From assembly GCA_018139225.1 (NCBI GenBank), contig JAGSNX010000006.1, positions 62,001-126,000 of the forward strand: 64,000 nucleotides of DNA, given 5' to 3'. The translations under genes and the position numbers were made by a program. Each line of letters begins with the position of its first letter. Position 1 is the first letter of the stretch. Of the stretch, positions 42,775 to 58,826 are shown in pieces. This stretch comes from Microvirga sp. SRT01 (GTDB lineage: Bacteria > Pseudomonadota > Alphaproteobacteria > Sphingomonadales > Sphingomonadaceae). The notes beneath the pieces were generated by a model that was not told the origin of the DNA, ran no database searches, and was given only the letters and a program-made list of their open reading frames with translations.

Positions 42775-43301
42775 GATCTTCCCAACCAGATGGCGACCCG
42801 GCGCAGGATCAGCTTGTTGTATTCGTTGACCAGCGTACCCAGCCGCGGGCTGCTCGGCACGCCGTCGCCCAGCACCAGCACGCCCTTGCCCATCGACGCG
42901 CGCAATTCCATTCCCGCCCGTGCCAAATGCCAGTCTGACGTGACGAGGCGCACGGTGCGGTAATTGTGCGCGCGAACCCACTGCGCCGTCTCCTCGCCGT
43001 TCGAGCGCGTATCGACGGCATCGGTGCCGAGATCGACGCAGCATGCGAACAGACGCGTCGATCCCGGATAGGTCCGCGCGAGATCGGCAGGCCTCACCCC
43101 GGAGCCGACTCCCGTCACCAGCATCCGCTTCGCCTGTTTGCTGCGCAGCAATTCCAATCCGCGATCGATGCGTCCGGCCCCGCCGGTCGGCACGACGATG
43201 CCATCGGTGGTCGTCCCCTCCAGCGGTTGCGGCAAGGAGACCATGAACACGGCGAAACCCAGCGCCCACACCAGACCCAGGAACCCCAGCAGCCGGATCA
43301 C
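42771..43301 (-). CDS. YdcF/DUF218-family membrane protein
   Basis: A 176-residue protein with one N-terminal transmembrane helix and a DUF218 domain: DGIVVPTGGAGRIDRGLELL, RMLVTGVGSG, DTRSNGEETAQWVRAHNYRTVRLVTSDWHLARAGMEL. The conserved Glu and His residues are present. YdcF-type proteins are linked to envelope biogenesis, but the reaction is not known with confidence. It lies between ftsX (overlap of four bases) and plsC. Confidence 0.87.
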   Translation of the reverse strand: MIRLLGFLGLVWALGFAVFMVSLPQPLEGTTTDGIVVPTGGAGRIDRGLELLRSKQAKRMLVTGVGSGVRPADLARTYPGSTRLFACCVDLGTDAVDTRSNGEETAQWVRAHNYRTVRLVTSDWHLARAGMELRASMGKGVLVLGDGVPSSPRLGTLVNEYNKLILRRVAIWLGRS

Positions 43302-44209
43302 AGCGTACGCCTGAGTGCACGGGTCACGGCGAAGCGAGCGGCGGCCATCGCCAGCGCGACGAAGCCCAGCGGCAGGATCGCGAGCAGCACCCAGTCCGCC
43401 GGTCCCAGCGTGACGCCGCCGATCAGTTCCGACCCCAGTGCCGCGAGTTGTCCGCCGATCAGCGCGATGACGCCGAGCGCCACGACGGTCCCGACGATCC
43501 CGCCGATGCCGGTGTCGAGCGCGATGCGCCGCTGGAACAGCCGAGCGACCTGCACGTCGGTCGAGCCGAGCATGTGCATGACCTCGATCGTGGCGCGGTG
43601 CGCCTCCAATCCCGCGCGCGCCGCCAGCACCACGACCGCCGCCGTCGCCCCCGCCATCAGCAGCACGACCCCCGCCGCCAGCCAGGTGACGGAGCGCATC
43701 AGGCCACTGACCGGCGACATCCAGCGCGCGTGCCGGTCGACGCGCGCGGCCTTGCTCGCCGCGGTGACGCGCGCGACGACGCGGTCGGCTGCCCGATCCT
43801 CGGCGGCACCGTCTTCGTTCGCGGCGAGATCGACATCGATCATCGCCGGCACCGGCAGGCCCGCATCAGCGGCGTCGCTGCCCAGCCAGGGGCGCAGCAA
43901 CCGCGTCAGCTCGGCGCGATCTACGGGGGTCGCCTGCGCCACCTCCGGCATCGTCCGCAACACCGCCAGGACGCGTGCAGCGGCGGCGTCGCGACGCGCT
44001 GCTTCGCCCTCGACGACCTGCACGGTCAACCGTCCCGCCAGTTGCCGGTCGAGCAGCCGTCCCGCACTCGCAGTGCCGAGGCCGAGTGCGGCGGCGAGCA
44101 CGGTCAGGAACACCATGATCGCCATGACCCACGTCATGGCGCGCACGCCGCCGGCTTCGTCGAGCAGGCGCGTCGTGTCGGGGCGGCGGCGGGCCGCAAA
44201 GAGCGTCAC
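43298..44209 (-). CDS. ftsX: cell-division ABC permease FtsX
   Basis: A 303-residue permease with a cytosolic N-terminus, a first helix (TWVMAIMVFLTVLAAALGLGT), a periplasmic domain of about 110 residues (containing LRTMPEVAQATPV), and three further helices. FtsEX controls peptidoglycan hydrolases at the septum. The start is a GTG overlapping the ftsE stop (GTGA). Confidence 0.9.
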   Translation of the reverse strand: MTLFAARRRPDTTRLLDEAGGVRAMTWVMAIMVFLTVLAAALGLGTASAGRLLDRQLAGRLTVQVVEGEAARRDAAAARVLAVLRTMPEVAQATPVDRAELTRLLRPWLGSDAADAGLPVPAMIDVDLAANEDGAAEDRAADRVVARVTAASKAARVDRHARWMSPVSGLMRSVTWLAAGVVLLMAGATAAVVVLAARAGLEAHRATIEVMHMLGSTDVQVARLFQRRIALDTGIGGIVGTVVALGVIALIGGQLAALGSELIGGVTLGPADWVLLAILPLGFVALAMAAARFAVTRALRRTL

Positions 44210-44913
44210 GGCTCGCCTCGCGGCGGCGGATAGCGCAGCGCACCGGTGGGATCGAGCAGGCGGCCGTGATCCAGCCGCATCATTTGCGCGGTCGGGATGC
44301 GCGACACGAGGTGCAGATCGTGGGTCGCGACCACCACGGTGGTGCCGATCGCGTTGAGCGATCCAAACAAATGGATCAGCCGGTCCGCCATATCCGGGTC
44401 GACGTTGCCGGTCGGCTCGTCCGCGACCAGCATCTCCGGCCGGGTGATGACCGCGCGCGCGATCGCCACGCGCTGTTGCTCGCCACCGGACAGCGTGGCC
44501 GGCTTCGCGTCGGCGCGCTCGGCCAGCCCGACCCAGGCGAGCATCTCGCGCACCGGCCGCTCGATCTCCGCATCGGCGATGCCGGCGACGCGCAGAGGCA
44601 GCGCGATATTGTCCCAGGTCGACAGATGCGGAACGAGGCGGAAATCCTGGAACACCACGCCGATACGGCGGCGGAAACCCGGCAATCGTTCGCGCGGCAG
44701 CACCACCGCATCCTCGCCGAACAGGCGGATCACGCCGCGGCTGGGGCGTTGCGCGAGGTACAGCAGCTTCAGGAGCGACGTCTTGCCCGCGCCGCTCGCC
44801 CCGCTCAGGAAATAGAAGGACCCGGCCTGCAGGCTGAAGCTGATATCGGTCAGCGTCTCCGCGCCGGTGCCATAACGCAAGCCGACATTCTCGAATTGCA
44901 CGATCGTCGTCAT
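44206..44913 (-). CDS. ftsE: cell-division ATP-binding protein FtsE
   Basis: A 235-residue ABC ATPase: Walker A SGASGAGKTSLLKLLYL (about 38-54), Q-loop VFQDFRLVPHLSTWDNIALPLR, signature LSGGEQQRVAIARA, Walker B MLVADEPTGNVD and switch VVVATHD. The VFQDFRLV sequence is characteristic of FtsE. I use the ATG at 44913; a longer in-frame stretch upstream crosses the tandem repeats and encodes an Arg/Ala-rich tail unlikely to be translated. Confidence 0.94.
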   Translation of the reverse strand: MTTIVQFENVGLRYGTGAETLTDISFSLQAGSFYFLSGASGAGKTSLLKLLYLAQRPSRGVIRLFGEDAVVLPRERLPGFRRRIGVVFQDFRLVPHLSTWDNIALPLRVAGIADAEIERPVREMLAWVGLAERADAKPATLSGGEQQRVAIARAVITRPEMLVADEPTGNVDPDMADRLIHLFGSLNAIGTTVVVATHDLHLVSRIPTAQMMRLDHGRLLDPTGALRYPPPRGEP

Positions 44914-44926
44914 GGCCGCCCAGTGC

Positions 44927-45040
44927 TTGGCACGTGCGGCGCGCCGCTTCAAGCTTGGGAGCCGGCGCGGAGGCGCGCCGCTTCGCGCTTGGCAGCCGGT
45001 GCGGAGGCGCACCGCTTCGCGCTTGCCAGCCGCGGCGCGG
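44927..45040 (-). repeat. tandem 34-base hairpin repeats upstream of ftsE
   Basis: Two complete 34-base units in direct tandem (44955-44988 and 44989-45022), preceded by a shorter copy (44927-44954) and followed by a partial copy (45023-45040). Each full unit folds into a hairpin; GGCGC/GCGCC in the first becomes GGTGC/GCACC in the second, a compensatory change that keeps the pairing. The array fills most of the spacer between ftsE and the zinc-ribbon gene. Confidence 0.75.
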
Positions 45041-45090
45041 GCGTGGCACATTCATGACGGCCGCGCTTCGTCGGCGTGCTGGGGCGTAGC

Positions 45091-46097: not shown

Positions 46098-46184
46098 GCG
46101 GTCGTGGCGGAATTGGTAGACGCGCAACGTTGAGGTCGTTGTGTCCGAAAGGACGTGGAAGTTCGAGTCTTCTCGACCGCACCA
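46098..46184 (+). tRNA. tRNA-Leu (anticodon GAG)
   Basis: An 87-base cloverleaf including encoded CCA. Acceptor arms GCGGTCG and CGACCGC pair perfectly; the anticodon stem CAACG/CGTTG encloses the loop TTGAGGT with anticodon GAG at 46132-46134; a long variable arm (TCC-GAAA-GGA) marks a class II tRNA; the T arm contains GTTCGAGTC. It reads CUC and CUU codons. Confidence 0.97.
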
Positions 46185-46236: not shown

Positions 46237-46872
46237 TCAGCCCGCCAGGATGTGCGCCAGCGCCTCCAGCGACAGTGGCGTGACGAAGCGGAAACCGCAT
46301 CGCACCCCGGCCTCGCCCGCCGCATCGCTCGGCCGCACCCAGCACATGCGCCCGTAGAGCGACGATCCCGTGTCGGGCAGCAGCAACTGTCCCGTGTCGC
46401 CGACCCGCATCGGCCACGGTGTTGCGATCTTCGCGCCGCCCGCCGACACGTCGATCGTCCGTGCCGCCAGCCGCTTGTCCCCGAACCGGAGCAGCGCCGG
46501 CCGGACCAGCGCGAACCGGGGGGCGCGCGCGATCAGCCCGGCCTCGTCGACCGGTTGGAACACCCGCTCCACCGGTTGCGGCATCGCGAACTCCAGCCCG
46601 GCCTTGCGGTCCCGCACCCAGCGCACGGTCGCCTCCACCATGTCCAGGCCCCGCATCGCGATCGTCATCCGGTCTCCCACCACCGGCGGCACCGCGAACC
46701 GCGCCATCATCCCGCCCGCCGAGATGTCGTGGATCAGGCACGCGACCTCTGTTCCCGCATAGGTCGCGCGCCCGATCAACAATACGGCGCGGTGGCGTTT
46801 GCCCGGTCGCCGCCGGTCGGCCACCCCCGCGGCGGCCAGTCCGTCGTCCCGCAGATCATAGTCCTTCAGCAA
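46237..46872 (-). CDS. protein with two PilZ domains
   Basis: A 211-residue soluble protein with two PilZ-type domains. The first has RRRPGKRHRA and, further on, DISAGGMMARF; the second has RPALLRFGDK and DVSAGGAKIAT. The RxxxR and [DN]xSxxG motifs suggest binding of cyclic di-GMP, more convincingly in the first domain. Its start overlaps the end of the small gene at 46866, which in turn is coupled to the DUF11 operon, so it may be the regulatory end of that operon. Confidence 0.85.
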   Translation of the reverse strand: MLKDYDLRDDGLAAAGVADRRRPGKRHRAVLLIGRATYAGTEVACLIHDISAGGMMARFAVPPVVGDRMTIAMRGLDMVEATVRWVRDRKAGLEFAMPQPVERVFQPVDEAGLIARAPRFALVRPALLRFGDKRLAARTIDVSAGGAKIATPWPMRVGDTGQLLLPDTGSSLYGRMCWVRPSDAAGEAGVRCGFRFVTPLSLEALAHILAG

Positions 46873-47105
46873 AACCGTGGCTCCCCCATCGTCCCGCGCG
46901 GCCTCGCCTGCGCGCGAAGCTGCCGGGTCCGGTACCGGACCCGCTGCCAGAAGGTCGCGTCGTCGAGCAACCAGCGCTCCAGCGCCTCCGCGATCAGCGT
47001 CGCGATCAACGCCTCCGCCTTGGCTTCGTTGTGCGTGACGAAGATTTTGGCGACGACGGTGACGTCGCTGCCATGATCGCTACAGTTGCGGGGGAGGGGG
47101 GGCAT
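46866..47105 (-). CDS. small hypothetical protein, coupled between a DUF11 gene and the PilZ gene
   Basis: A 79-residue protein; the ATG overlaps the upstream stop (TGATG) and its stop lies inside the start of the PilZ gene. Residues about 20-70 form a likely long helix (AKIFVTHNEAKAEALIATLIAEALERWLLDDATFWQRV). No signal peptide or transmembrane segment. I do not recognise it; the tight coupling on both sides is the main argument that it is real. Confidence 0.5.
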   Translation of the reverse strand: MPPLPRNCSDHGSDVTVVAKIFVTHNEAKAEALIATLIAEALERWLLDDATFWQRVRYRTRQLRAQARPRGTMGEPRFC

Positions 47106-47635
47106 CAGTTTACTCGCGTGCGGAAGCGGAGGCGGAAGGTACCGCCGGTAAAATGGTTTCCATTCAGCTTCATCCTGATCTGCTTCACCTTCACATCGCA
47201 CCCGTTCGCGTCGGGTACGGGAACATAGTTCCAGGTCGTGCCGTCGTAGAATTCGATTCCGTCGGTGAGGCTGGCAAGCGAGGTGTACGGCAGCGTCAGC
47301 CCACTGCCGATCAGCGCGCCCGCCGCCACGCCGTCCGCCAGTTCGACGGGGGCGGTCGCGCCCGGATAGTTGGTCACCACCAGGCACATGTTGACCGGGA
47401 TCGGATCGGTGAACTGTTCGCCCGTCACCACGGCGCCGGTGTTGCCCGCACTGAACGTGCCCAGCGGGTTGGTGACGAGGATGCTGTAATCGACCAGCGC
47501 CCCCGGCAGCGCCTTGGGATTGAGCGTGCTGATCCTGTCGTCCGCGACCGCGCTGGTTTTCACGATCGTCAACGGCGCCGTCGCCGTCAGGATCGGGAGC
47601 AGCATCGCCGCGGTCAGGAAGCGGACCCGGATCAT
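47105..47635 (-). CDS. small secreted DUF11-type protein
   Basis: A 176-residue secreted protein with a hydrophobic leader (VRFLTAAMLLPILTATAP). The mature part resembles the C-terminal part of the 370-residue protein at 52715: both have the phrase STLNPKALPGA-(L/V)-V-(D/E)-Y, and both end in beta-rich sequence. The ATG overlaps the stop of the giant gene by four bases. It may be a partner or subunit of the same surface structure. Two cysteines are present (about residues 80 and 147). Confidence 0.75.
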   Translation of the reverse strand: MIRVRFLTAAMLLPILTATAPLTIVKTSAVADDRISTLNPKALPGALVDYSILVTNPLGTFSAGNTGAVVTGEQFTDPIPVNMCLVVTNYPGATAPVELADGVAAGALIGSGLTLPYTSLASLTDGIEFYDGTTWNYVPVPDANGCDVKVKQIRMKLNGNHFTGGTFRLRFRTRVN

Positions 47636-50600
47636 GGCCGCTGCCCGAAGAGTCGGCCCGCCACCGACTTCAGCGACCATTGATCGAACTTCACGCGCAT
47701 CGTCACATATGGCCCCTTTCGCGTGTACCGGTCGGCGGAGAAATCGCGGTCGCGATAGCCGCCGATGTTGTAGCCGGCGCTGACCCACACATTCCCGCCG
47801 GGGGTGACGCCGACCGAAGGGCCGCCGCTCCACGACCACACGCCGCGGTCCCAGGCGTGGCTGACCGAACCCTGCACGCCGATGTCGAAGCGCTTGGCCA
47901 CGTCGTGGCGCAGTTCGAAGCCGGCGACGTCGATGAAGCCGTCGTACACGTCGTCGGCGAACCGGCCGCGGACATACTTCGCACCGTAATAGAGCGTGGC
48001 TTCCGTCCCGTGCGACAGCCCCTCCGGTCCGGTGCGATAGTTCAGCGCCAGATTGTTGACGATGCGATCGGTGATCTGGTCGCCGCCGCCATACGCGGGC
48101 ACCCCCAGCGCGTTGGCGGCGGAGAAGCCGCTATCCGCCCGCTCGTGACGCAGCTCCAGCCGCTCCAGCACCGACCAGCGGCTGTCGAGCGGGCGCAGCG
48201 CCAGCGCGATATCCGCAGAGGCCGTCGCCGCGATCCGCCCCGCCTCGTCCCGCACGCGATACGCGCGGACCGACGACGCCAGCGTCTGTCCCTCGCCGAG
48301 CGCGCGCAGCAGGTTGCTGGTGAAGCCGAGCCGCTGCTCGGTATCGGCATCGCGATATTCGGCGCGGCCGTTCCACGACCAGCGCGGACCGCGATAGGTC
48401 GTGCCCAGCGTCAGCGCGGCATAGTCGCCGTTGGTCTGCGTCTGCGACAGGAAGCCGCCCGACGCCGCCGGCTGGAACGCGTTGACCGCGGCGAGGGGCG
48501 AGATGTTGCCCTTCACGGTGTTCGCCGCATCGATGGTCGCGTCGATCGTCCAGCGCGTGCCGATCGGCACCGACTGGCTGAGGCCATATTGCGCGAAGGT
48601 GCGGCTGCCATTCTCGCCCGCCGCCTGCTGGTTCAGCGTGCTCGACAGCTTCGCACCGCTCCAAGGAGTCAGGTCAAAACCGGCCTGCGCGGTGTGCGCG
48701 ACGAAATCCCGGCCCGAGGCGATCTCGTACCCGCCGATCAGGCGGATGCCAGGCGTGATGCGATAGCCGGCGGTGACGCGCGTGCGCTCCGGGAAGTCGG
48801 TGCTCGCCTTGTCGCCGCCCGGTGCGATCTGCGTCTCCGCGCCCAGCGTCAGCTTGTCGCCGAACAGCGCCTGCGTGCCACCCAGCGTCAACAGCCGGCT
48901 GTCGCGGTCGCGCCCGTCGAGGCCGCGGTCGGACGCGATTTGGGTACCGGCATACAGCGTGCCGGTGTTGCGGCGGTACTCGACGCGCGCATCGGCGGCG
49001 ATCCGCTCGCCCGGGCCGACCAGTTGCGTCTGGTACCAGGCGGTGCCGGTGACCGACAGGCGATCGCTCAGCTTCAGGCGGCCGTCGACGCCCAGCTTGC
49101 GCGTGCCCGCCTCGACCAGATTCTGCTGGCCGACGCCGAACATCGCATCCTGCTGCCGCGCATAGGCGAGCACGTCGATGCCGCCGGTGTGCGTGTCCGC
49201 CTCGACCAGATAGGCGGTGCCGGCGCCGATGCCGCCGCGTCCGCCTGCGGCCAGTTCGGCGCGCAGTTCGGTGACGCCGAGCTTCGCCTTCAGGTCGGCG
49301 CCGATCACGGTCGACTTGGCGATCGTCTCGTCGCGGATCATGCTGGTGCCGATTTCGACCCGACCGACGCGGGCGGCGACGCGCGCGGCGGCGGCGAGCT
49401 TGCTCGTCCGGCCACCCTCGACCTCGTAATCGGCGACGATGAACACCGGATTCTGGTTGCCGTCGCGGCTCAGGATCGGGTTGCGGAAGCGGACGGTGCC
49501 CGCCGCCGTGTCGATGTCGTAATCGATGTGGCGCGTCAGCTGGCGCACGTCGAGGATCAGCTCCGACCGGAAGCGGTCGCGCGTCTCGATGCGCAGCTTG
49601 TCGCTGTTCGGCACGATGCGGCGCGTCGACAGGCGATACGGGCCGGACAGGCCGTTGCCCTGGATCTCGTCGCGCGCATACAGCGTGTCGGTCTTCGCGG
49701 CGAAGCCGGTCGCGCGGATCGTGCGGCCTTCGTAGGCGGCCTTCACGCCGTTCAGCGTGCGGCTGTAGCGGGTCAGCTGCGTATCGGTGAAGCCGGTCTC
49801 GAAATCGCCGAACAGCGCGTACAGCTCACGCCGCTCCAGGCGCAGGTACAGCTTGCGGCGGGTCGGCGCGTCGTAGCCCTGCACGCTGCCGTCGCCATAG
49901 ACGGTGTAGTAGCGATCGGGATCGATCACGCCGAGCAGGCCGCGCTGCGGATCATAGGCACGGTCGCTGTCATAGGCCATCGTCAGCAGCCACTGACCCT
50001 TGATCCGGCCCTTGGCATAAACGGCGAGCTGACCGTCGGTGACGAGCTTGTTGCGCTCCGAGCGAGGCAGCGCGGTCGACCGGCTCTTCAGCGTGTCGTA
50101 GCCGATCGTGCCCGCGCCGAAGCCGACCACCGACCACTGCTTGGCGGCACCCGACAGCCAGGCGCGGATGTCGCTCGACCGCACGGTCTTGTCTTCGGTC
50201 AGCAACACGGTCGCGTGGACCGCACCTGCCTGCGTCGTCGGCTCCAGCGCGATGAAGGCATAGCCGTCGTCGCCGACGACATTGACGAGCGTCTCGGTTT
50301 TCTCGCGCCCGGCAAGCTGGCGGCGCTGCTCCAGCGCGGCTTCGACCGCGGCGCGGTACGGCTGGTTGAGGCGGAAGGGCACCGGCGTGCCGGCGCGCAC
50401 CGGGCGATTGTCCTTGTCGACGACGCGCACGGCGATCAGCGGGCGGGTCAGGCCGTCCGCGACCAGCCGGCTCTTGGCGGCATCGAACGTCGCACGGACG
50501 CCGGCGCCGGCATAATGCACGGTGCGCTCCAGCGTGGTCACGGTCTTGCCCCCGGCGTCGAGGACGCGGGCGGTCAGCAGGTTGTTGCCTGCATGCAGTG

Positions 50601-52617
50601 GCACGCCCGTCCACTTCGACACCGCGACACCGCCATCTGGAGCCGTATCGGAGCCGTCATAGGTCAGCGCCTCGACCGGCGTACCGTCGACGCTCAGCGC
50701 GATCCGTTCGGACGGGGCATGCTTGATGACGACGCGAAGCGCGGGGTCGCGGGGGTTGTGATCGGCGGCCGGAAACAGCCAGTCGGTGCCGGGCGTCTGT
50801 CCGCTGATCCAGTCGCGGTTGCCCGCGGCGGCGGCATCGTCGGCGACGGCGACGGGCAACGCATCGCTGGCGGCGGCGGTGCGGCCGGTCGGCTCCAGCT
50901 GGAAATCGACGCGCTTCAGCGTGCCGCCCACGCCCTCGACGAAGCGCGAGATGGCGGAACCGGCCGCGCGCGTATCGGCGTCGCAGGCCACGGCGCGGTG
51001 CGTCGCGGGCAGGCTGTTCTCGTCCAGTTGCACGACATGGCGGCCCGCGCGCAGGCCTTCGACATGGTACAACCCGTCCTTGTCGGTGACGGTGAAGGTG
51101 CCGTCTTCCATCATCAGACGGATTCCGGGCACGCCCTTGCGCTTTTCGACCGGATCGCCGCACGCACCCTCGGTGACGCGGCCGATCAGCGTCATCGCGT
51201 CGCTGAACAGCAGCGCGCGCAGGCGGACGGAGGCGGCGGCCTCGTTGCTGGTCACGCCGCTGCCGGCGACGCGGGCACGGTTCAGCGCCTCGCCGACCGG
51301 CGCACCGGGGGCGATCGACACGACATAGCGCACGTCGACGCTGCCGCCGACGCCGACGTCGGGGATCGTGAACGACAAGGTGCGGCCGTCGCTGGCGACG
51401 TCGGGCTCCGCCGCGCCGCGGGTCGATCCCCGCTCGTACCGCAGGCCGGTCGGCAGGGTGTCGGTGACCTTCAGCGCACGGGCGGGCGCGTCGCCGCGGT
51501 TCGACAGTTGCAGGCGGTACTGGACGAAATCACCCGGCGACGCGTCGCGGACGGAGGCGGTCTTGGTCAGCAACAGGCTGTTCGATCCCGGCCGGTCGAG
51601 CGGGATATCGGTCAGGAAAGGGTCGGGCGTCTCCAGCACGAAGGGCAGGCCGAACGACGCATCGTTGATGATGTATGCGCCGTTGCTGCCGGTCAGCTTC
51701 GCCAGATCCTCGCGCGGGACGACGGAGGGCGCGGTATAGTCGCCCGGCGGCTGGATTCGGATCGTATAGGTGCCGGGCAGGGTCAGCGGGAACCAGTAAC
51801 GACCCTTGTCGGCGACGTAGACGCGACCGCTGGCGTCGGTCACCTCTTGGCCGCTGACGACGGTGGACGGATAGCGGCTGATGCCGTCGACGCCGAAGAC
51901 GGTGGCGGGGGCACCGTTGGCATCGACCAGGCTGACGATCGCGCCGTCCACCAGCGTGCCGTCGCGCGAATCGAAGACGTAGCCGGCGGGATCGATCAGC
52001 AGCGAGTTGGTCGACGAAAAGCTGAAATTATCCTCGGTATAGCTGAAGCTCAGCCGCTCTCCGCGTTTCAGGATCGCTTCGCACGGCTTCAGCTCGGCTT
52101 GCGTGCCGACCTGCGGAACGCCGCCGGCGAAGACACCGCTGTCGGGGGCGGTTTCCAGTATCGGGATCTCGCCTTTGTAGCTGGGCGTGGAGATGCCGAT
52201 GTTGGCGGTGTCGCGGACGGCGGGATCGCGATTGGCGCCGGGGGCGTCGAGCACGAAGATCATCGGCTGCGACAGGTCAAACGCGGCGAGGGGCGGGGCG
52301 GACGCCAGCATCGCTTCGTCGATCGGGGCGGGGGTGTATTGCGGGGACGGCGTCAGGTCGCAGCGCGCGCCGGTCAGTTCGCGACCGGGAGGGGCAAGGC
52401 GGAAGCTGATGCGTGTCGGGCGCTTGGAGCGCGAAAAGGGCAGGGTGACGGTGTTCGAGCGGACCGTAGCGGTTTCGCCGGTCGCGGCGCGGAACGACAG
52501 CGTCGCCGTATTCTCGACGCGTCCGCCTGTTGCCGTCTGCGCCAATGCCGCCACGCCCGCCGACAACAGGGCGAGGGGGAGCATGATCGGCAGGGCAAGG
52601 CGGTGAAGCGGTCGCAT
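47632..52617 (-). CDS. giant outer-membrane protein: DUF11 and SdrD-B-like domains fused to a large beta-barrel
   Basis: A 1661-residue protein. Signal peptide 1-27; a VENTATLSF beta segment; an SdrD-B-like region (about 215-295); a DUF11 domain (about 347-466, SLLLTKTASVRDASPGDFVQYRLQLSN); a second SdrD-B/carboxypeptidase-regulatory-like domain (about 474-540); Ig-like regions to about 860; then about 790 residues of alternating, aromatic-rich strands that look like an outer-membrane beta-barrel, ending GPYVTMRVKFDQWSLKSVAGRLFGQRP. The barrel end resembles that of a widespread unnamed proteobacterial family. The start has AGGATATC before ATG. It is the largest gene of a run of DUF11 genes and probably anchors or exports the others; that is inference. 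Confidence 0.85.
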   Translation of the reverse strand: MRPLHRLALPIMLPLALLSAGVAALAQTATGGRVENTATLSFRAATGETATVRSNTVTLPFSRSKRPTRISFRLAPPGRELTGARCDLTPSPQYTPAPIDEAMLASAPPLAAFDLSQPMIFVLDAPGANRDPAVRDTANIGISTPSYKGEIPILETAPDSGVFAGGVPQVGTQAELKPCEAILKRGERLSFSYTEDNFSFSSTNSLLIDPAGYVFDSRDGTLVDGAIVSLVDANGAPATVFGVDGISRYPSTVVSGQEVTDASGRVYVADKGRYWFPLTLPGTYTIRIQPPGDYTAPSVVPREDLAKLTGSNGAYIINDASFGLPFVLETPDPFLTDIPLDRPGSNSLLLTKTASVRDASPGDFVQYRLQLSNRGDAPARALKVTDTLPTGLRYERGSTRGAAEPDVASDGRTLSFTIPDVGVGGSVDVRYVVSIAPGAPVGEALNRARVAGSGVTSNEAAASVRLRALLFSDAMTLIGRVTEGACGDPVEKRKGVPGIRLMMEDGTFTVTDKDGLYHVEGLRAGRHVVQLDENSLPATHRAVACDADTRAAGSAISRFVEGVGGTLKRVDFQLEPTGRTAAASDALPVAVADDAAAAGNRDWISGQTPGTDWLFPAADHNPRDPALRVVIKHAPSERIALSVDGTPVEALTYDGSDTAPDGGVAVSKWTGVPLHAGNNLLTARVLDAGGKTVTTLERTVHYAGAGVRATFDAAKSRLVADGLTRPLIAVRVVDKDNRPVRAGTPVPFRLNQPYRAAVEAALEQRRQLAGREKTETLVNVVGDDGYAFIALEPTTQAGAVHATVLLTEDKTVRSSDIRAWLSGAAKQWSVVGFGAGTIGYDTLKSRSTALPRSERNKLVTDGQLAVYAKGRIKGQWLLTMAYDSDRAYDPQRGLLGVIDPDRYYTVYGDGSVQGYDAPTRRKLYLRLERRELYALFGDFETGFTDTQLTRYSRTLNGVKAAYEGRTIRATGFAAKTDTLYARDEIQGNGLSGPYRLSTRRIVPNSDKLRIETRDRFRSELILDVRQLTRHIDYDIDTAAGTVRFRNPILSRDGNQNPVFIVADYEVEGGRTSKLAAAARVAARVGRVEIGTSMIRDETIAKSTVIGADLKAKLGVTELRAELAAGGRGGIGAGTAYLVEADTHTGGIDVLAYARQQDAMFGVGQQNLVEAGTRKLGVDGRLKLSDRLSVTGTAWYQTQLVGPGERIAADARVEYRRNTGTLYAGTQIASDRGLDGRDRDSRLLTLGGTQALFGDKLTLGAETQIAPGGDKASTDFPERTRVTAGYRITPGIRLIGGYEIASGRDFVAHTAQAGFDLTPWSGAKLSSTLNQQAAGENGSRTFAQYGLSQSVPIGTRWTIDATIDAANTVKGNISPLAAVNAFQPAASGGFLSQTQTNGDYAALTLGTTYRGPRWSWNGRAEYRDADTEQRLGFTSNLLRALGEGQTLASSVRAYRVRDEAGRIAATASADIALALRPLDSRWSVLERLELRHERADSGFSAANALGVPAYGGGDQITDRIVNNLALNYRTGPEGLSHGTEATLYYGAKYVRGRFADDVYDGFIDVAGFELRHDVAKRFDIGVQGSVSHAWDRGVWSWSGGPSVGVTPGGNVWVSAGYNIGGYRDRDFSADRYTRKGPYVTMRVKFDQWSLKSVAGRLFGQRP

Positions 52618-52633
52618 GATATCCTGAAAAGTG

Positions 52634-52677
52634 CCGGCACGCGCGAAACGAGGGGACAGACGGTCCGCGCGTGCCGG
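52634..52677 (-). repeat. perfect 12-base inverted repeat within the DUF11 operon
   Basis: Arms CCGGCACGCGCG (52634-52645) and CGCGCGTGCCGG (52666-52677) around a 20-base loop, followed on the gene-distal side by a second hairpin CCCGAGG/CCTCGGG (52680-52701). No T-run follows. It fills most of the 97-base gap between the 370-residue gene and the giant gene and could attenuate transcription or protect the upstream message. Confidence 0.75.
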
Positions 52678-52714
52678 AGCCCGAGGGGGAGGGGCCTCGG
52701 GGAGGGGGAGGGGC

Positions 52715-53827
52715 TTAGTTGATCGTCACATTGAAGGCGGCGCTGACGGCGGCGCCGCCGTTCACGGTCGGGATGATCGCCGTGACCGTCTTGGTCTGCG
52801 TGTCGAAGCTGCCCTTGTACGTCGTGCCGTCGGTATCGTCGGTGGCGTCGTCGTCCTGCGCCTCGCCGCCGAGCAACACGCAGCTACCGCCCGGCAGGCC
52901 GATCTTCAGCGATCCGGGGACATAGGTGGTGTTGGTCGGGATGACGTCGGTCAGCGTCACCGCATTGGCGCCGGTGCCGAGCGTCGCGTTGCGGACGGCG
53001 AGGCAGTATTCGACGACGGCACCCGGGAGTGCCTTCGGGTTCAGCGTGCTGACGCCGTCGCTGACCACGAACGACGATTTGGTGACGCTCAGCGCGACGT
53101 CGTGAATACCGACGACATAGGCCAGATAGGCACGCGCCTGCCCGTCGCGCAGCAGATCGGCACCGACGCCGTCGGTGTCGGCGTCGGCGAAGACGACGTC
53201 GACATCGTCCTTGCTGTTGAGCAGCGTTGCGGTGAGCGCGGCCCCCTTGGTGCCGGCCTGCCCACCCGCCGCGACAGTCGCGTGCAGGTTGACGATGGCG
53301 AGCTGCGCGGAGCTGGCCGGCACGTCGCCGACCAGGAACACCGTCACCGCGCCGTCGGGAGCCAGTTCGTCGATGAAGGTCGCAGTGTCGACGCCCGGAT
53401 CATACTGGTTGTTGCCGTTCGAATCGACGTACGCCTTCAGGTTCTGCATGTCGAAATTGTCGGTGCCGAGACCAAGGCCGAGCGACAGGTTCTGGTCGCC
53501 GTCCAGCAGGATGTCCTGAATGGCGTTGGTCTTGTTGGTGACGCGGTACGTCGTCACCGCGCCGACCTGACCCTGGTTCACCTGCGTGTCCGCCGATTGC
53601 AGCGCGACGACGGTCAGGTTGACCTTGCGATCGACCACGAACGTCGCGGCGTTGGACGCGGTCGTCTGCGACTGGCCGTTGACCGAATAGGTCGCATTGG
53701 CGGTGTTGGTGACCAACACGCCGGCGGCGGTGCCGTTGGGGGTGGTCTGCGCTCCTGCCTGCGACGCCGCGATGCCGGAAACGGCCGCGGTGCCGGTCAG
53801 CAGCAGGCGCATGGTACGCGTGAACAT
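52715..53827 (-). CDS. secreted DUF11-type beta-rich protein
   Basis: A 370-residue secreted protein: signal peptide (MFTRTMRLLLTGTAAVSGIAASQAGAQ), a VTNTANATYSVNGQ segment like that of the 331-residue protein, a Ca-binding-like acidic stretch (VDSNGNNQYDPGVDTATF and ADADTDGVGAD), and a C-terminal DUF11-like region (STLNPKALPGAVVEYCLAVRN). Only two cysteines. The ATG at 53827 has a strong AGGAGG site; an in-frame ATG at 53878 would translate a GGT-repeat-derived Thr run and is less likely. It is a likely structural subunit. Confidence 0.82.
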   Translation of the reverse strand: MFTRTMRLLLTGTAAVSGIAASQAGAQTTPNGTAAGVLVTNTANATYSVNGQSQTTASNAATFVVDRKVNLTVVALQSADTQVNQGQVGAVTTYRVTNKTNAIQDILLDGDQNLSLGLGLGTDNFDMQNLKAYVDSNGNNQYDPGVDTATFIDELAPDGAVTVFLVGDVPASSAQLAIVNLHATVAAGGQAGTKGAALTATLLNSKDDVDVVFADADTDGVGADLLRDGQARAYLAYVVGIHDVALSVTKSSFVVSDGVSTLNPKALPGAVVEYCLAVRNATLGTGANAVTLTDVIPTNTTYVPGSLKIGLPGGSCVLLGGEAQDDDATDDTDGTTYKGSFDTQTKTVTAIIPTVNGGAAVSAAFNVTIN

Positions 53828-53848
53828 GGTGCCTCCTGTCGTTCGGAT

Positions 53849-53866
53849 GGTGGTGGTGGTGGTGGT
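53849..53866. repeat. (GGT)6 trinucleotide microsatellite
   Basis: Six uninterrupted GGT units on the plus strand (ACC on the coding strand), in the short gap upstream of the 370-residue secreted protein gene. If the upstream in-frame ATG at 53878 were used it would encode a Thr run. A change in unit number would alter leader length without a frameshift. Confidence 0.85.
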
Positions 53867-53874
53867 GGGACGGG

Positions 53875-54348
53875 TCATCGGACGATCGCCTGGAAGGCGA
53901 GTTCGCCGCCGGTGCCCGCGGTCACCGGCGAATTCAGGCGCCACCGGACGTGCGTGACGTCGTCGGCGGTGGCAGGACGCGTGCCGCCCGCGACGGCGGG
54001 CACGCGCAAGGTGGACAGCGGTCCAAAGGTGCGGCCGTCGACCGACACTTCCGGCGCGGCGCCGGCCCCGCGCGGACCGCGATAGGCAAGGCCGTTCGGC
54101 ACCGGATTGGCGAGCACCAGCCCGGCGATCGGCGCGGTGCCGCGGTTGCGATAGGCGAGCTGCACGACGACGCGGTCGCCGGGTCCTACATGGTTCGGCG
54201 CGGCGAGTTTCATCGTGACGCTGCCGTCCGCCGCCGGCACCCGCGTCTCCGCGAGCATCGTCGTCGTCAGGGCGAGCGGGGAAGCGGCAGCGGCAGCGGG
54301 TTGGGGACTCGCTGCCGCCGCGACCGCGGCGAACAGGAACGGGATCAT
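53875..54348 (-). CDS. secreted DUF11-type single-domain protein
   Basis: A 157-residue protein with a signal peptide (MIPFLFAAVAAAASPQPAAAAA) and one DUF11 domain (VPAADGSVTMKLAAPNHVGPGDRVVVQLAYRNRGTAPIAGLVLANPVPNGLAYRG). No cysteine in the mature part. The ATG at 54348 has AAGGA seven bases upstream; a GTG at 54363 overlapping the previous stop is an alternative. It sits between two larger DUF11 proteins in the same operon. Confidence 0.8.
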   Translation of the reverse strand: MIPFLFAAVAAAASPQPAAAAASPLALTTTMLAETRVPAADGSVTMKLAAPNHVGPGDRVVVQLAYRNRGTAPIAGLVLANPVPNGLAYRGPRGAGAAPEVSVDGRTFGPLSTLRVPAVAGGTRPATADDVTHVRWRLNSPVTAGTGGELAFQAIVR

Positions 54349-54359
54349 CGCAATTTCCT

Positions 54360-55355
54360 TCACTGGAGACGGACCTTGAACTGGACGGTGTGGGTGGTGG
54401 CGGGGCCGCCCGGCCGGTCGGGCAGGCGGATGGACACGGACTGGCCGTCGAAGCCGCCGGCATCGCCGTCGGCGGCGTCGCTGATCCTGGCGTCGTCGAG
54501 GGTCAGCGTGCCGGGCAGGTAGACCGCGTCGGAGGGGACAGGGTCGTCGATGATCGCCGCGGAGAGGGCGGCATCGGTGGGGATCCGGGCCACCAGCGTG
54601 TAGGTGACGACGGCGCCGCTGCCGGCGGTTGCCCCTGCTGTCAGCGGGGTGCCGTCCGCGGCGGCGACCGACTGCGACTTGACCAGCGTCGGGGTGGTGG
54701 AGGCGGTGGCGACGAACGGGATCGCCGCACTCGCGATCGCGCCGGTATCGCCGACGATCGCATCGCTGCCATCGTCGCCAAGACCCGGCAATTCCTGCCT
54801 GGGGTCGCCGTGACCGGTGGTCGCCTCCGCCGTCACCGTCAGGCTGCCGTCGGCCGGGGTGGTGCCGGCGGTCGGAGCGAGCACCGCGACGAGCGGCAGC
54901 GTCTCCCCGGGCGCGAGGACCGGCGTCGCCCCGGTCAGGACGATGTCCTGCTCCGGCTCGAACCGGCCATCGCCGTTGGTGTCGATCGCGACGGTCTGCA
55001 CCGTCGTCGTCGGCGTGGAGGTGCCGGCGGTGACGGTGAAGCTTTCCTGACCAGAACCCTGATTAGTCAGTTGCACGGGCACCGACACGGGCGTCGTGTC
55101 GATCGTGACCATGCCGCCGTCATGAGACAGCCCGATGTCCAGGCGTTCCGCGACGACGATCGTGACGGTGTTGGAGGGCATGGACTGCGACTTGCCGTCC
55201 ACGTCGTAGCGAAGCTGCGCGGTATTGGTGATCGCGGTGCCGGCGCGGGTGTCCGCCGTCGCGGGCGAAGCGGGGACGCACGCAGCGGCAGTAGCAAGGG
55301 CGGCTGCGGGAAGCCCCCCCATCCACAGTCGCAACGTTGTACCCGAACACGTCAA
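54360..55355 (-). CDS. secreted DUF11-type protein, first gene of the operon
   Basis: A 331-residue secreted protein. The start is a TTG at 55355 with GGGAG seven bases upstream; the leader runs LRLWMGGLPAAALATAAACVPASPATA. The mature protein begins with AGTAITNTAQLRYDVDGKSQSMPSNTVTIVV, close to the N-terminal segment of the 370-residue protein, and contains a Ca-binding-like DTNGDGRFEPEQD and a C-terminal DUF11 region. A sigma-70-like promoter lies 43 bases upstream. Confidence 0.8.
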   Translation of the reverse strand: MTCSGTTLRLWMGGLPAAALATAAACVPASPATADTRAGTAITNTAQLRYDVDGKSQSMPSNTVTIVVAERLDIGLSHDGGMVTIDTTPVSVPVQLTNQGSGQESFTVTAGTSTPTTTVQTVAIDTNGDGRFEPEQDIVLTGATPVLAPGETLPLVAVLAPTAGTTPADGSLTVTAEATTGHGDPRQELPGLGDDGSDAIVGDTGAIASAAIPFVATASTTPTLVKSQSVAAADGTPLTAGATAGSGAVVTYTLVARIPTDAALSAAIIDDPVPSDAVYLPGTLTLDDARISDAADGDAGGFDGQSVSIRLPDRPGGPATTHTVQFKVRLQ

Positions 55356-55689: not shown

Positions 55690-56103
55690 TCATTTCAGCA
55701 GGTCCAGCGTCGCCCTGTCGCGCTCGCCGCTATAAAACCGGTCCAGCCCGGCCGTGAACACGGCTTTCTGCGAATCGGCAGCGACCGCTTCGAACAGCGT
55801 GAGCGAGGACCGCAGCTTCATCGCGTCGATCGATCCGAAGATCGTCTCCGCCGACCCCGATGCCGTGATCGCCGCTCGCGTCGCTTCGATCAGCCGCGAT
55901 CCGAGCAGCGGGTCCGCCAGATAGGCGCGGGCCTCGTCGGCCGAAGCGATCGCGTAATGCCGCGCGGTTTCGCTGCGCCCCAGACCGGCGATCTGCGGAA
56001 AGATCCACCACATCCAGTGGCTGCATTTCCGTCCTGCAGTGACCTCGGCGATCGCGGTCGGCCAGCTCCGGGCCTGTGCATCGATGAAGCGGGACAGGTC
56101 CAC
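55690..56103 (-). CDS. DUF1810-family protein
   Basis: A 137-residue soluble protein with the DUF1810 signature DLSRFIDAQ...KCSHWMWWIFPQIAGLGRSETARHYAI and the later YLADPLLGSRLIEAT. The start is set at a GTG (56103) with GGGAG seven bases upstream; a TTG eleven codons earlier is less likely. The function of the family is unknown. Confidence 0.85.
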   Translation of the reverse strand: MDLSRFIDAQARSWPTAIAEVTAGRKCSHWMWWIFPQIAGLGRSETARHYAIASADEARAYLADPLLGSRLIEATRAAITASGSAETIFGSIDAMKLRSSLTLFEAVAADSQKAVFTAGLDRFYSGERDRATLDLLK

Positions 56104-56198
56104 GGCACGGCTCCCATCGTTCTGTGCCGACTGCAACCGCCGTCCGTGCGGCGCGTTCCCACCGCCAAGACCATAATCGCAGGGAGGAACAGCTGCGC

Positions 56199-56730: not shown

Positions 56731-57360
56731 ATGCTGGAACACGTGCCGCATTGGCTGGGAAGTGCGCTGAAGGGCTTGCGCGCGGGCACCGACAAGCTGG
56801 CGGTCGCGCAGGAGGGGTTGGGGGCGTTCGAGGCGTTGACGCTGTCCAGCCCGGCCTTCGCCGATGGCGGGCGCCTGCCGGACCGGTTCACCGCGGATGG
56901 TGCGGGCGTGTCGCCGCCTTTGATGTGGCGCGATCCACCGCCGGGCACGGCCCGGCTCGCGCTGCTGGTCGAGGATGCGGATTCGCCGACGCCGCAGCCC
57001 TTGGTGCATGCGGTGGTCTGGGACCTCGCACCGGAGGCGGGGCATTTGGCGGAGGGGGCGATCGTCGCCGACGGGAAGGGCGACACGGCGGGCCGCGATG
57101 TCGGCCGCAATTCCTATTACCGGGAGGGCTGGTTGCCGCCCGATCCGCCGACCGGCCACGGCGAGCATCGCTATGCGTTTCAGCTTTTCGCGTTGGCGGA
57201 GGGGGCGGGCGATCCGGGCGATACGCCGGGTCGGACGGCCCTGCTGGCGGCGATGGCCGGGAAGGTGTTGGCGGCGGGGATCCTGATCGGGACCTATTCG
57301 CGGATGGAGGAGGCTCCGGTCGGCCCGGTAGGCGCTGGGGCGGGGGCGGCGGCGGCCTGA
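56731..57360 (+). CDS. YbhB/YbcL-type PEBP-like protein
   Basis: A 209-residue protein with the phosphatidylethanolamine-binding-protein fold: FTADGAGVSPPLMWRDPPPGTARLALLVEDADSP, LVHAVVWDLAP, RNSYYREGWLPPDPPTGHGEHRYAFQLFAL. The DPD/GxHR-type motifs (DADSP and GEHRY) are present. No signal peptide. An additional N-terminal stretch of about 35 residues precedes the usual start of the family. The ligand is unknown. It follows the lipoprotein gene by ten bases. Confidence 0.88.
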   Translation: MLEHVPHWLGSALKGLRAGTDKLAVAQEGLGAFEALTLSSPAFADGGRLPDRFTADGAGVSPPLMWRDPPPGTARLALLVEDADSPTPQPLVHAVVWDLAPEAGHLAEGAIVADGKGDTAGRDVGRNSYYREGWLPPDPPTGHGEHRYAFQLFALAEGAGDPGDTPGRTALLAAMAGKVLAAGILIGTYSRMEEAPVGPVGAGAGAAAA

Positions 57361-57782: not shown

Positions 57783-58826
57783 TCAGGCGGCGCAGACCTT
57801 GTCCCGGCCCGTGTCCTTGGCCGTGTACAACAGCCGATCGGCGCGCTCGAAGGCGGTATCGGCCTTCTCGCCCGCCCGGATCGCCGTCACGCCCGCAGAG
57901 ATGGTGACCATGCCCAGCGGCTTGCCGGTATCGCGGTCGCGGAACCGGCGCGAAGCGACCTCGGCCCGCGCCGCGTCGAGCAATGCGGCGGCACTCGCCA
58001 GGTCGCATCCCGCCAACAGGATCGCGAACTCCTCGCCGCCGTGGCGCGATACGATATGACCGTCGCACGTCTTGGCCAGCGCCTCGCCAATCGCCGAGAG
58101 CACGCGGTCGCCCACGGGATGTCCGAACTCGTCATTGACGCGCTTGAACCGGTCGATGTCGCACAGGGCGAGGCAGTGCGGGCCGCTGCCCTCCACCCGC
58201 TCCGCAAACGCGTCGGCGAAGCCGAGTCGGTTGCACAGACCGGTCAGCGGATCGCGCCGCGCGTCGTCGCGCGCCTGTGCAAGCTTGGCGCGCAAGGTGT
58301 CGGCTTCCTCGGTCGCCTGCGCCAGCTTCGCTTCCGATTCGCGGATGCGGCGGATCATTGCGGTGGCGATTCGCGTCACTTCGTCGCTGTGCTGGAACCG
58401 GGGCGAGCGTTCGATCGCGGCGGCGCTGGCGGCGAGATCACGACCGAAGTCGCGCGTTTCGACATGCATCGCCCGTGTCATGGCCGCGAACACGTCGACC
58501 TGCGCCTGGGTCTGCGCAACGAGCGCTTCGGCCTGACGGTCGAGCGCGACGTCGCCGCCAGCCCACCGCGCCGGCGGCATCCCGCCGGCGACCACCTCGC
58601 CGCCGAGCTGCTCGATCTGCTCGTGCGTCAGCCGATATCCGCCGTCGGTCAACAGCGCGACTTCGCGTGCCAGATCCCCCCCGGGCTCCGCCAACACGGC
58701 ATGAGCGAACATGTAATGCGCAGGATCGGGGCTCAACCGGTGCGCGGCCAGAAATGCCCCGATCCGATCGTACAGGTCTTCCCCATGATCCTGTCGCCGC
58801 GCAATGCCGGCGTGTCCCATTCCCAC
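57783..58826 (-). CDS. diguanylate cyclase (GGDEF protein)
   Basis: A 347-residue soluble protein. Residues about 1-170 form an alpha-helical N-terminal domain of unknown role; a coiled coil (about 165-185, ESEAKLAQATEEADTLRAKLAQARDDARRDPLTGL) leads to the GGDEF domain with DPLTGLCNRLGF, CDIDRFKRVNDEFGH and an active-site motif RHGGEEF. The RxxD inhibitory site normally a few residues before GGEEF is absent (TCDGHIVSRHGGEEF). It probably makes cyclic di-GMP without product inhibition. Confidence 0.92.
   Translation of the reverse strand: MGMGHAGIARRQDHGEDLYDRIGAFLAAHRLSPDPAHYMFAHAVLAEPGGDLAREVALLTDGGYRLTHEQIEQLGGEVVAGGMPPARWAGGDVALDRQAEALVAQTQAQVDVFAAMTRAMHVETRDFGRDLAASAAAIERSPRFQHSDEVTRIATAMIRRIRESEAKLAQATEEADTLRAKLAQARDDARRDPLTGLCNRLGFADAFAERVEGSGPHCLALCDIDRFKRVNDEFGHPVGDRVLSAIGEALAKTCDGHIVSRHGGEEFAILLAGCDLASAAALLDAARAEVASRRFRDRDTGKPLGMVTISAGVTAIRAGEKADTAFERADRLLYTAKDTGRDKVCAA

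Follow-up and report, generated by a model that had tools for sequence, protein, structure and literature searches.

An apparently split DUF11 domain and a candidate self-crosslinking surface fibre on a predicted giant outer-membrane barrel in Sphingomonadaceae

In chaperone–usher pili (FimD, PapC), subunits combine an acceptor domain that lacks its last strand with an N-terminal donor, the tip has no donor, and the usher is an outer-membrane barrel of 24 strands with an insertion. SpyTag/SpyCatcher is an engineered split CnaB domain, the parts of which bond on meeting. Such a tag/catcher design is mentioned in PMC5487036 (statements on this and the other papers cited here refer to the portions of their text available). 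Gram-positive sortase pili contain CnaA-like domains with Lys–Asn bonds that are catalysed by Asp and lie within a subunit, and sortase makes the links from subunit to subunit; SpaD has such a bond between the first and the second-last strand of its CnaA domain (PMC4014117). Archaeal threads join donor-strand complementation with a proposed intermolecular isopeptide bond, which runs from the N-terminal amino group of Asp24 to Asn57 two subunits away (PMC9715654). DUF11 (PF01345) was established in 2025 as an isopeptide domain and renamed CLIPPER, and in the crystal structure 9IFR, Lys715 is bonded to Asn806 with Asp748 as the presumed catalyst (PMC12617251). Finally, type IX secretion uses the giant barrel SprA, whose 36 strands were named the largest known in a 2020 review, and unlinked cargo proteins that share one C-terminal domain (PMC7463736). 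Here we describe an operon of seven genes, lettered A to G in transcription order, that lies in a 64,000-nucleotide stretch of the Microvirga sp. SRT01 genome (contig JAGSNX010000006.1, positions 62,001 to 126,000, family Sphingomonadaceae; hereafter the window). We consider the probable product of the operon to be a surface fibre or short chain that is built by donor-hairpin complementation of split DUF11 (CLIPPER) domains, crosslinks itself, and stands on a barrel anchor. The split domain and the split isopeptide triad are our main finding, and neither was seen in the original prediction for this locus, which had read the operon as a DUF11-rich surface structure with an outer-membrane barrel.

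The four smaller secreted proteins, A, B, C, and E, had been called DUF11-like, and profile scans bear this out in part. DUF11 is above threshold in D (Pfam, 42.6 bits, 8.6e-11; also TIGR01451), and C passes the cut-off of TIGR01451; A and B have only sub-threshold matches, and protein E has none in the scan with Pfam and TIGR01451. A further comparison came from hhalign against the complete DUF11 domain of D (125 columns), with which the C-terminal domains of A, B, C, and E align over columns 3–90 (E-value 2.8e-13), 12–91 (2.8e-9), 1–90 (1.4e-10), and 1–67 (6e-10), respectively. For A, B, and C, the alignment stops where it does because the protein ends, at most one residue further on. All four proteins thus appear to end in a DUF11 core that stops short of the terminal hairpin (the acceptor core), as if the domain had been split. 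Across homologues, the stop codon falls one residue past an alternating strand pattern in 99 of 105 A, 108 of 108 B, 107 of 109 C, and 28 of 36 E proteins; the pattern is permissive and informative only by its constant distance to the stop codon. A hidden Markov model (HMM) of the DUF11 core built from D alone left a median of 49 to 87 residues between the alignment end and the C-terminus for B, C, and E, and of 1 residue for A. This model is a poor ruler for B, C, and E, and the C-terminal ends were judged by hhalign together with the strand-pattern count. Within the last domain of C, Cys275 and Cys316 are invariant (109/109 C proteins) and may form a disulfide.

At the other end of the proteins, past a stretch resembling a signal peptide (the signal peptides of the subunits were read by eye), A, C, and D open with a hairpin of consensus ISNTATASWTVGGGPRSIPSNTVTLDV, which we call the donor hairpin. 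A profile from the hairpins of A and C recovers 97 of 112 D proteins, each at the N-terminus, so that the motif is beyond chance; a profile from C and D likewise recovers 97 of 105 A proteins, always N-terminally. The hairpins of C were found, again only at the N-terminus, in 78 of 109 proteins with the profile from A, in 60 with that from A and D, and in 49 with that from D, and the profile from C alone recovered only 8 of 112 D proteins, also N-terminally. No profile detected a donor hairpin in 108 B or 36 E proteins (i-E-value below 0.01). The original prediction had recognized the secreted members as related by shared N-terminal segments and by the phrase STLNPKALPGA; both are present, and the N-terminal motif also opens D, a point that it did not contain. 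Complete DUF11 domains in other proteins have terminal hairpins that look similar by eye. Among the 87 D proteins with a match to the hairpin HMM, the best match lies on the protein's own DUF11 tail in 25, although these are homologues rather than independent cases and other places recur as well. A Pfam scan of eight fragments gave no DUF11 match and one spurious match to Dmrt1.

Taken together, D has a donor only, A and C have both a donor and an acceptor, and B and E have an acceptor only; from such a set, chains could be assembled that start in D and finish in B or E. The residues of the isopeptide bond follow the same division. An alignment of the complete DUF11 domain of D with the 9IFR chain puts Lys352 and Asn446 at the positions of the bonded pair (by our own numbering of the printed alignment), and Lys352, Asp386, and Asn446 are conserved in 108, 109, and 108 of 109 non-gap rows. 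The spacing from Lys to Asp is 34 residues both in D and in the printed 9IFR sequence (the paper's numbering gives 33). D is the only one of the proteins to hold the Lys–Asp–Asn triad within one domain; for A, C, and E, the triad requires a donor and an acceptor to be combined. The donor Asn is present in 103 of 104 non-gap rows of A, 109 of 109 of C, and 108 of 108 of D. On the acceptor side, Lys is kept in A (105/105), C (109/109), and E (33/36), and Asp in A (105/105), C (109/109), and E (30/36, with Glu in four more). Only 24 positions in A and 25 in C are at least 97% identical, and in both proteins, these include the three residues of the triad; in D, the first positions at this level are Asn36, Ala38, Ser54, and Asn55. 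The strands linked in the CnaA domain of SpaD correspond to the places of the acceptor Lys and the donor Asn here.

A close relative (locus L104) provided a natural construct for modelling a joint, as its gene C is in frame with gene D except for one stop codon. The folded read-through consisted of C, the stop codon read as Ser, a linker of ∼68 residues that includes the D signal peptide, and the D hairpin. Its alignment had 94 rows, of which 25 were read-throughs; near-identical rows were removed, and the C rows of L146, L159, L166, L175, and L181 as well as all separate D rows were excluded. The predicted local distance difference test score (pLDDT) was mostly 85–98 in the C domains and below 60 in most of the linker. 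In structural alignments of the model, 50 of 50 listed matches extend as far as residue 463 or beyond, ending inside the D hairpin, and 32 of these start at residues 241–247 and span the last domain of C plus the D hairpin (our own counts). The best match was the pilin BcpA (Z 12.3, 2.7 Å, 131 residues), and 1edy_B, a domain of 130 residues, was matched over 128. Since the aligned ranges end inside the hairpin, the model appears to complete the last domain of C with the hairpin of D, a placement of medium confidence. In the model, the completed domain has a CnaA-like fold.

The C-terminal half of D had been put forward as a barrel, with structure prediction named beforehand as the test, and the prediction agrees. 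AlphaFold2 modelled residues 591–1661 of D from 50 sequences with a pLDDT of 81.0 and a predicted template modelling score of 0.75, and the result is a predicted outer-membrane barrel of ∼38–40 strands, counted from the listed strands (model residues 239–1055). A small non-barrel insertion at about residues 990–1050 of D (model residues ∼400–460) contributes four short strands that are excluded from this count. The predicted strand number compares with 24 in ushers. Foldseek's best matches for the barrel were mostly outer-membrane barrels, among them SlpA, Mtr, SprA, LptD, BtuB, and FimD. A second structure aligner returned barrels too, but with deviations of 6 to 21 Å, and its matches thus back a barrel and no particular relative; that a family is missing from these structure matches was given no weight. 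At the level of sequence families, D had no match to an usher family in Pfam or NCBIfam up to an E-value of 1, and none of the seven proteins matched a SprA or type IX family in the same databases up to that value. Of the composite architecture originally assigned to D, the DUF11 domain stands and the barrel is predicted, whereas the SdrD_B match is below its cut-off (20.5 against 29.7 bits). A second copy of D was not found in its own genome, where the sole other match was the DUF11-like part of gene B.

We examined how widely the barrel and its gene neighbours occur. The last 1022 residues of D matched 77 of 296 genomes of the order, in 28 of 79 genera and all within the window's family, and the majority of these matches cover almost the whole query. 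A scan of species genomes gave at least 573 related stretches, of which 80 were kept; the closest named relative among the matches listed was Sphingomonas sp. Leaf343, with 97% over a barrel fragment. Beyond its own class, the phylum also contains full-length relatives of D, and sequences related to just the first part of the barrel are more widespread. For gene order, 111 neighbourhoods were compared and scored from stop positions, the starts of the open reading frames being over-long; nine loci with a distant barrel type or a cut end (L053–L059, L061, and L062) were excluded from the comparison. At least 2.7 kilobases upstream of D were required, which removed 5 of the 111 loci from the order count. 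The genes A, B, C, and D follow one another on one strand in this fixed order in 103 of 106 loci, and in the remaining three, no open reading frame was scored as A. Relatives of E lie downstream in at least 35 of 111 loci, a lower bound because L047, L048, and L051 have E-like genes that were missed by the window's E. Relatives of F were found in 21 loci and the PilZ gene G in 14 (15 if a tblastn match in L115 is included), and the genes beyond the operon vary between loci. These counts indicate a core of A–B–C–D, with E facultative and F and G as local additions. L183, which lies outside the family, retains the plan A, B, C, D, E, and L190 has consecutive B-like, A/C-like, D, and E-like genes. 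In L055, which has the distant barrel type, three long proteins precede the barrel gene; by eye, an NTA hairpin opens two of the three and a strand closes two of the three. There is also a second barrel type, which is shorter (∼1250–1430 residues in three loci read) and matches D over only a part of its length; it comes after giant or multiple DUF11 proteins in L053, L055, and L194, and also in L054, L057, and L059, and its gene has a stop/start overlap with the preceding gene in L053 and L194.

This distribution separates the parts of the original prediction. The expected co-occurrence of the genes in other genomes holds for A–B–C–D, and a surface structure anchored or exported by the barrel fits both this co-occurrence and the barrel prediction, but neither the PilZ gene nor F nor E is general. 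G is indeed a tandem PilZ protein (Pfam PilZ 1.8e-25, in two stretches), with what we take, by eye, to be the binding motif. Cyclic di-GMP input as a general feature does not hold, however, and with G and F in so few loci, it would at most be a local addition. A GGDEF diguanylate cyclase gene lies 2.4 kilobases upstream of the PilZ-ending operon (57783–58826, minus strand; Pfam 1.9e-32). As a constant neighbour, it fared poorly: related matches occur in 8 of 111 loci, and full-length genes upstream of the operon occur in only two others (L104 and L119), so that it is not part of the unit and any link would be local.

The acceptor core of protein E also recurs away from the operon. Eight E proteins from other genomes (366–1093 residues) share a C-terminal core but differ in their N-terminal parts; Pfam found P-proprotein (3), beta-helix/NosD (1), DUF7933 (2), and more DUF11 in 10 operon-linked E proteins. 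Among 17 E proteins longer than 330 residues, the last 150 residues are alike in 115 of 136 pairs and the part before them in 57 of 136 (BLASTP E-value below 1e-5), so the passengers vary more than the acceptor, yet they are not all different. A profile of the E-type core (alignment A3, without the E-type rows of L134 and L149) was searched in 32 of the 77 genomes with a D match, which were not picked at random. It matched in all 32 (12 + 20) and in none of 37 genomes without a D match (0/20 of the same genus and 0/17 of the family or class). We counted a copy as unlinked if its match reached the profile end and D was on a different contig or no less than 50 kilobases away; by our own count, such copies occur in 20 of the 32 genomes (10/12 + 10/20). 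In the 20 unlinked proteins read, no donor hairpin was found. The profile match ends at most two residues from the C-terminus in 17 of them, the other three ending in a similar strand; 16 of the 20 retain Lys and 17 retain Asp. Their passengers are diverse: Pfam reported H-type lectin (2), spore coat U (1), SpaA pilin-like (1), Big_9/cadherin-like (1), DUF11 only, or nothing (one) in the 10 scanned. The Microvirga genome itself has one unlinked E-type protein of 343 residues (L236:2059–3090, contig C1 near 700 kilobases) with a spore coat U match (Pfam 2e-6).

In the assembly that we propose, the subunits would enter the periplasm by means of their signal peptides. D, with a donor only, would form the base on its own giant barrel, exporting the chain and holding it. 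Every acceptor would take up the hairpin of the subunit next to it; the chain would begin with D as the base and presumably finish in B or E, its order and length being inferred. In a filled acceptor, Lys and Asp would meet the donor Asn and a Lys–Asn amide bond would form spontaneously, by the chemistry of the intact domain, so that the chain would weld itself. B and E, with an acceptor only, would be caps or tips, and B, the acceptor of which lacks the reactive pair, could hold donors reversibly. Exchangeable tips may be supplied by the unlinked E-type proteins, whose passengers include lectin, pilin-like, and cadherin-like domains, among others.

Such an assembly would share features with several known systems and coincide with none of them. 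It would operate much as a chaperone–usher pilus does, but would differ from such pili in its two-strand hairpin donor, its DUF11 fold, the fusion of the base to the barrel, and the predicted covalent joints. SpyTag/SpyCatcher was engineered from CnaB, whereas the pair here would be natural and CnaA-like. We are evenly poised on the wider claim that the operon is a natural counterpart of SpyTag/SpyCatcher as a polymerization principle, namely a sortase-free, self-welding Gram-negative fibre with a pore base of ∼38–40 predicted strands, which would exceed the 36 of SprA, and several exchangeable tips scattered over a single genome. With CLIPPER domains, it has the domain family and the Lys–Asp–Asn triad in common, as well as the CnaA-like fold in the model, but the CLIPPER bond is intramolecular within one domain (PMC12617251), and here the triad would be divided over two proteins, part of it at the C-terminus of the first and part at the N-terminus of the second. 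Sortase pili also combine CnaA-like domains with Lys–Asn bonds and Asp; here, the bond is proposed between subunits. No sortase or LPXTG family was found among the seven proteins by Pfam and NCBIfam (the rest of the genome was not searched). In contrast to the archaeal threads, the bond here would be a Lys–Asn bond inside a completed domain, and no barrel is described for the threads in the available portion of PMC9715654. Relative to type IX secretion, the shared C-terminal domain is an unfinished DUF11 and the phylum is another. A search of the open-access literature (subscription papers lay outside it) found no split DUF11 fibre. Two candidates from that literature were set aside. In a paper on type 11 secretion, "DUF11" is DUF1194 in the 12 of 14 places shown, bar one mention of PF01345, and D matches no such family; in the available portion of a paper on spore appendages, DUF11 occurs only as repeats of a proposed anchor protein.

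Several results weigh against a self-welding chain. The likeness between the donor hairpin and the DUF11 tail is not significant by sequence (best hhalign E-value 0.12, at the right place for A only); proof by sequence failed, and we base the equation of the two on their position and motif, together with the invariant Asn and the structure model. In the tethered model, which has no control fold, the two long strands of the D hairpin reach a pLDDT of only 70–74, and the N-terminal hairpin of C itself is placed confidently (90–94, at a site that is not visible), so it may serve in cis. That every one of the 32 genomes has the E-type core follows in part from the presence of the operon, since A and C match the profile too, mostly over its first half. 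No chaperone, PapD-like or other, is recognizable among the seven proteins in Pfam and NCBIfam scans. Moreover, parts of the triad are missing in places: B has no Lys–Asp pair, 102 of 108 proteins having Asn in place of the Asp, and Val, Ile, Met, or Ala occurring around the approximate position of the Lys; Lys is missing in 4 and Asp in 3 of the 20 unlinked E-type proteins, and the copy in the Microvirga genome lacks both; and the D proteins of L185 and L187, from another class, have Ser in place of the donor Asn, by which their D joint may be non-covalent.

These gaps make bond-free complementation at least plausible for B, some E-type proteins, and the two distant D proteins, and the bond is not kept in all DUF11 domains (PMC12617251). 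Complementation could then be real yet non-covalent throughout, as in chaperone–usher pili, with Lys, Asp, and Asn kept for packing. We think this unlikely as a general account, given that the triad is near-invariant in A, C, and D over ∼105 operons, among the 24 (A) and 25 (C) positions that are so strongly conserved. A somewhat less likely account still has D read the C-terminal DUF11 core as a sorting signal and nothing more, in the manner of type IX secretion, for one-by-one secretion or display; there would be no polymer, and the hairpins would be ordinary strands. Here too, several unlinked proteins with one C-terminal domain co-occur with a giant barrel, and the confident placement of C's own hairpin without a partner suits such an account, but it leaves unexplained both the homologous hairpin of A, C, and D that is not found in B and E and the joint conservation of the hairpin Asn with the acceptor Lys–Asp pair. 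Closure in cis, in which A and C would each fill their last domain with their own hairpin and no chain would form, draws on the presence of both halves in each protein and on the well-placed hairpin of C, but it is very improbable in view of the acceptor-only B and E, the donor-only D, and a model that fills the last domain of C with the hairpin of D despite C's own hairpin in the same chain.

Table 1. Genes and predicted domains of the operon (positions in the window)
Feature	Position	Strand	Description
Gene A	54360..55355	-	Secreted; N-terminal donor hairpin and C-terminal acceptor DUF11 core; putative link subunit
Gene B	53875..54363	-	Secreted; acceptor-like core alone, no Lys–Asp pair; putative cap or holder
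Gene C	52715..53827	-	Secreted; donor hairpin, middle domain, and acceptor core; putative link subunit
Gene D	47632..52617	-	1661 residues; donor hairpin, DUF11, SdrD/carboxypeptidase-like and Ig-like domains, giant barrel; predicted base
Gene E	47105..47635	-	Signal peptide and acceptor core alone; putative tip
Gene F	46866..47105	-	79-residue protein, function unknown
Gene G	46237..46872	-	Tandem PilZ protein, local addition
Complete DUF11 of D	51208..51582	-	Residues 346-470; Lys352, Asp386, Asn446 in one chain; Pfam 8.6e-11
Acceptor core of A	54363..54692	-	Residues 222-331; Lys226, Asp271; hhalign
Acceptor core of C	52718..53110	-	Residues 240-370; Lys250, Asp294; ends at stop codon; hhalign
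Donor hairpin of A	55146..55250	-	Residues 36-70; Asn44; profile from C and D hairpins
Donor hairpin of C	53624..53731	-	Residues 33-68; Asn41; profiles from A and from A and D
Donor hairpin of D	52426..52530	-	Residues 30-64; Asn36; profile from A and C
Predicted outer-membrane barrel of D	47683..50133	-	Residues 829-1645; AlphaFold2, Foldseek

The features are collected in Table 1. All seven reading frames are open on the minus strand (55355–46237), and as originally described, most overlap: four of six junctions do so, by 4 nucleotides at A/B and D/E, 1 at E/F, and 7 at F/G. Whether B and C overlap depends on the start taken for C; the start at 53827 is preceded by aggaggcacc, and an alternative ATG at 53878 would overlap the end of B. 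C and D are separated by a gap of 97 nucleotides. The operon is followed by a tRNA-Leu gene on the opposite strand (46098–46184). Further along lie overlapping genes for an ABC ATPase (1.9e-32) and an FtsX-like permease (8.4e-7), in an order like that of ftsE-ftsX (43298–45051, minus strand), and just upstream of the operon are a DUF1810 gene (55693–56136, minus strand; 3.3e-52) and a gene for a phosphatidylethanolamine-binding protein (56731–57360, plus strand; 1.4e-29).

If the proposed self-welding chain is correct, it would represent a class of bacterial surface fibre with an assembly principle of its own, found in many Sphingomonadaceae and, in an altered form, in other Pseudomonadota. 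It would give a function to the unfinished DUF11 domains at protein ends and would account for a large family of barrels for which Pfam has no name. It would also supply natural donor/acceptor pairs for protein ligation and would make the surface attachment of environmental bacteria directly testable.

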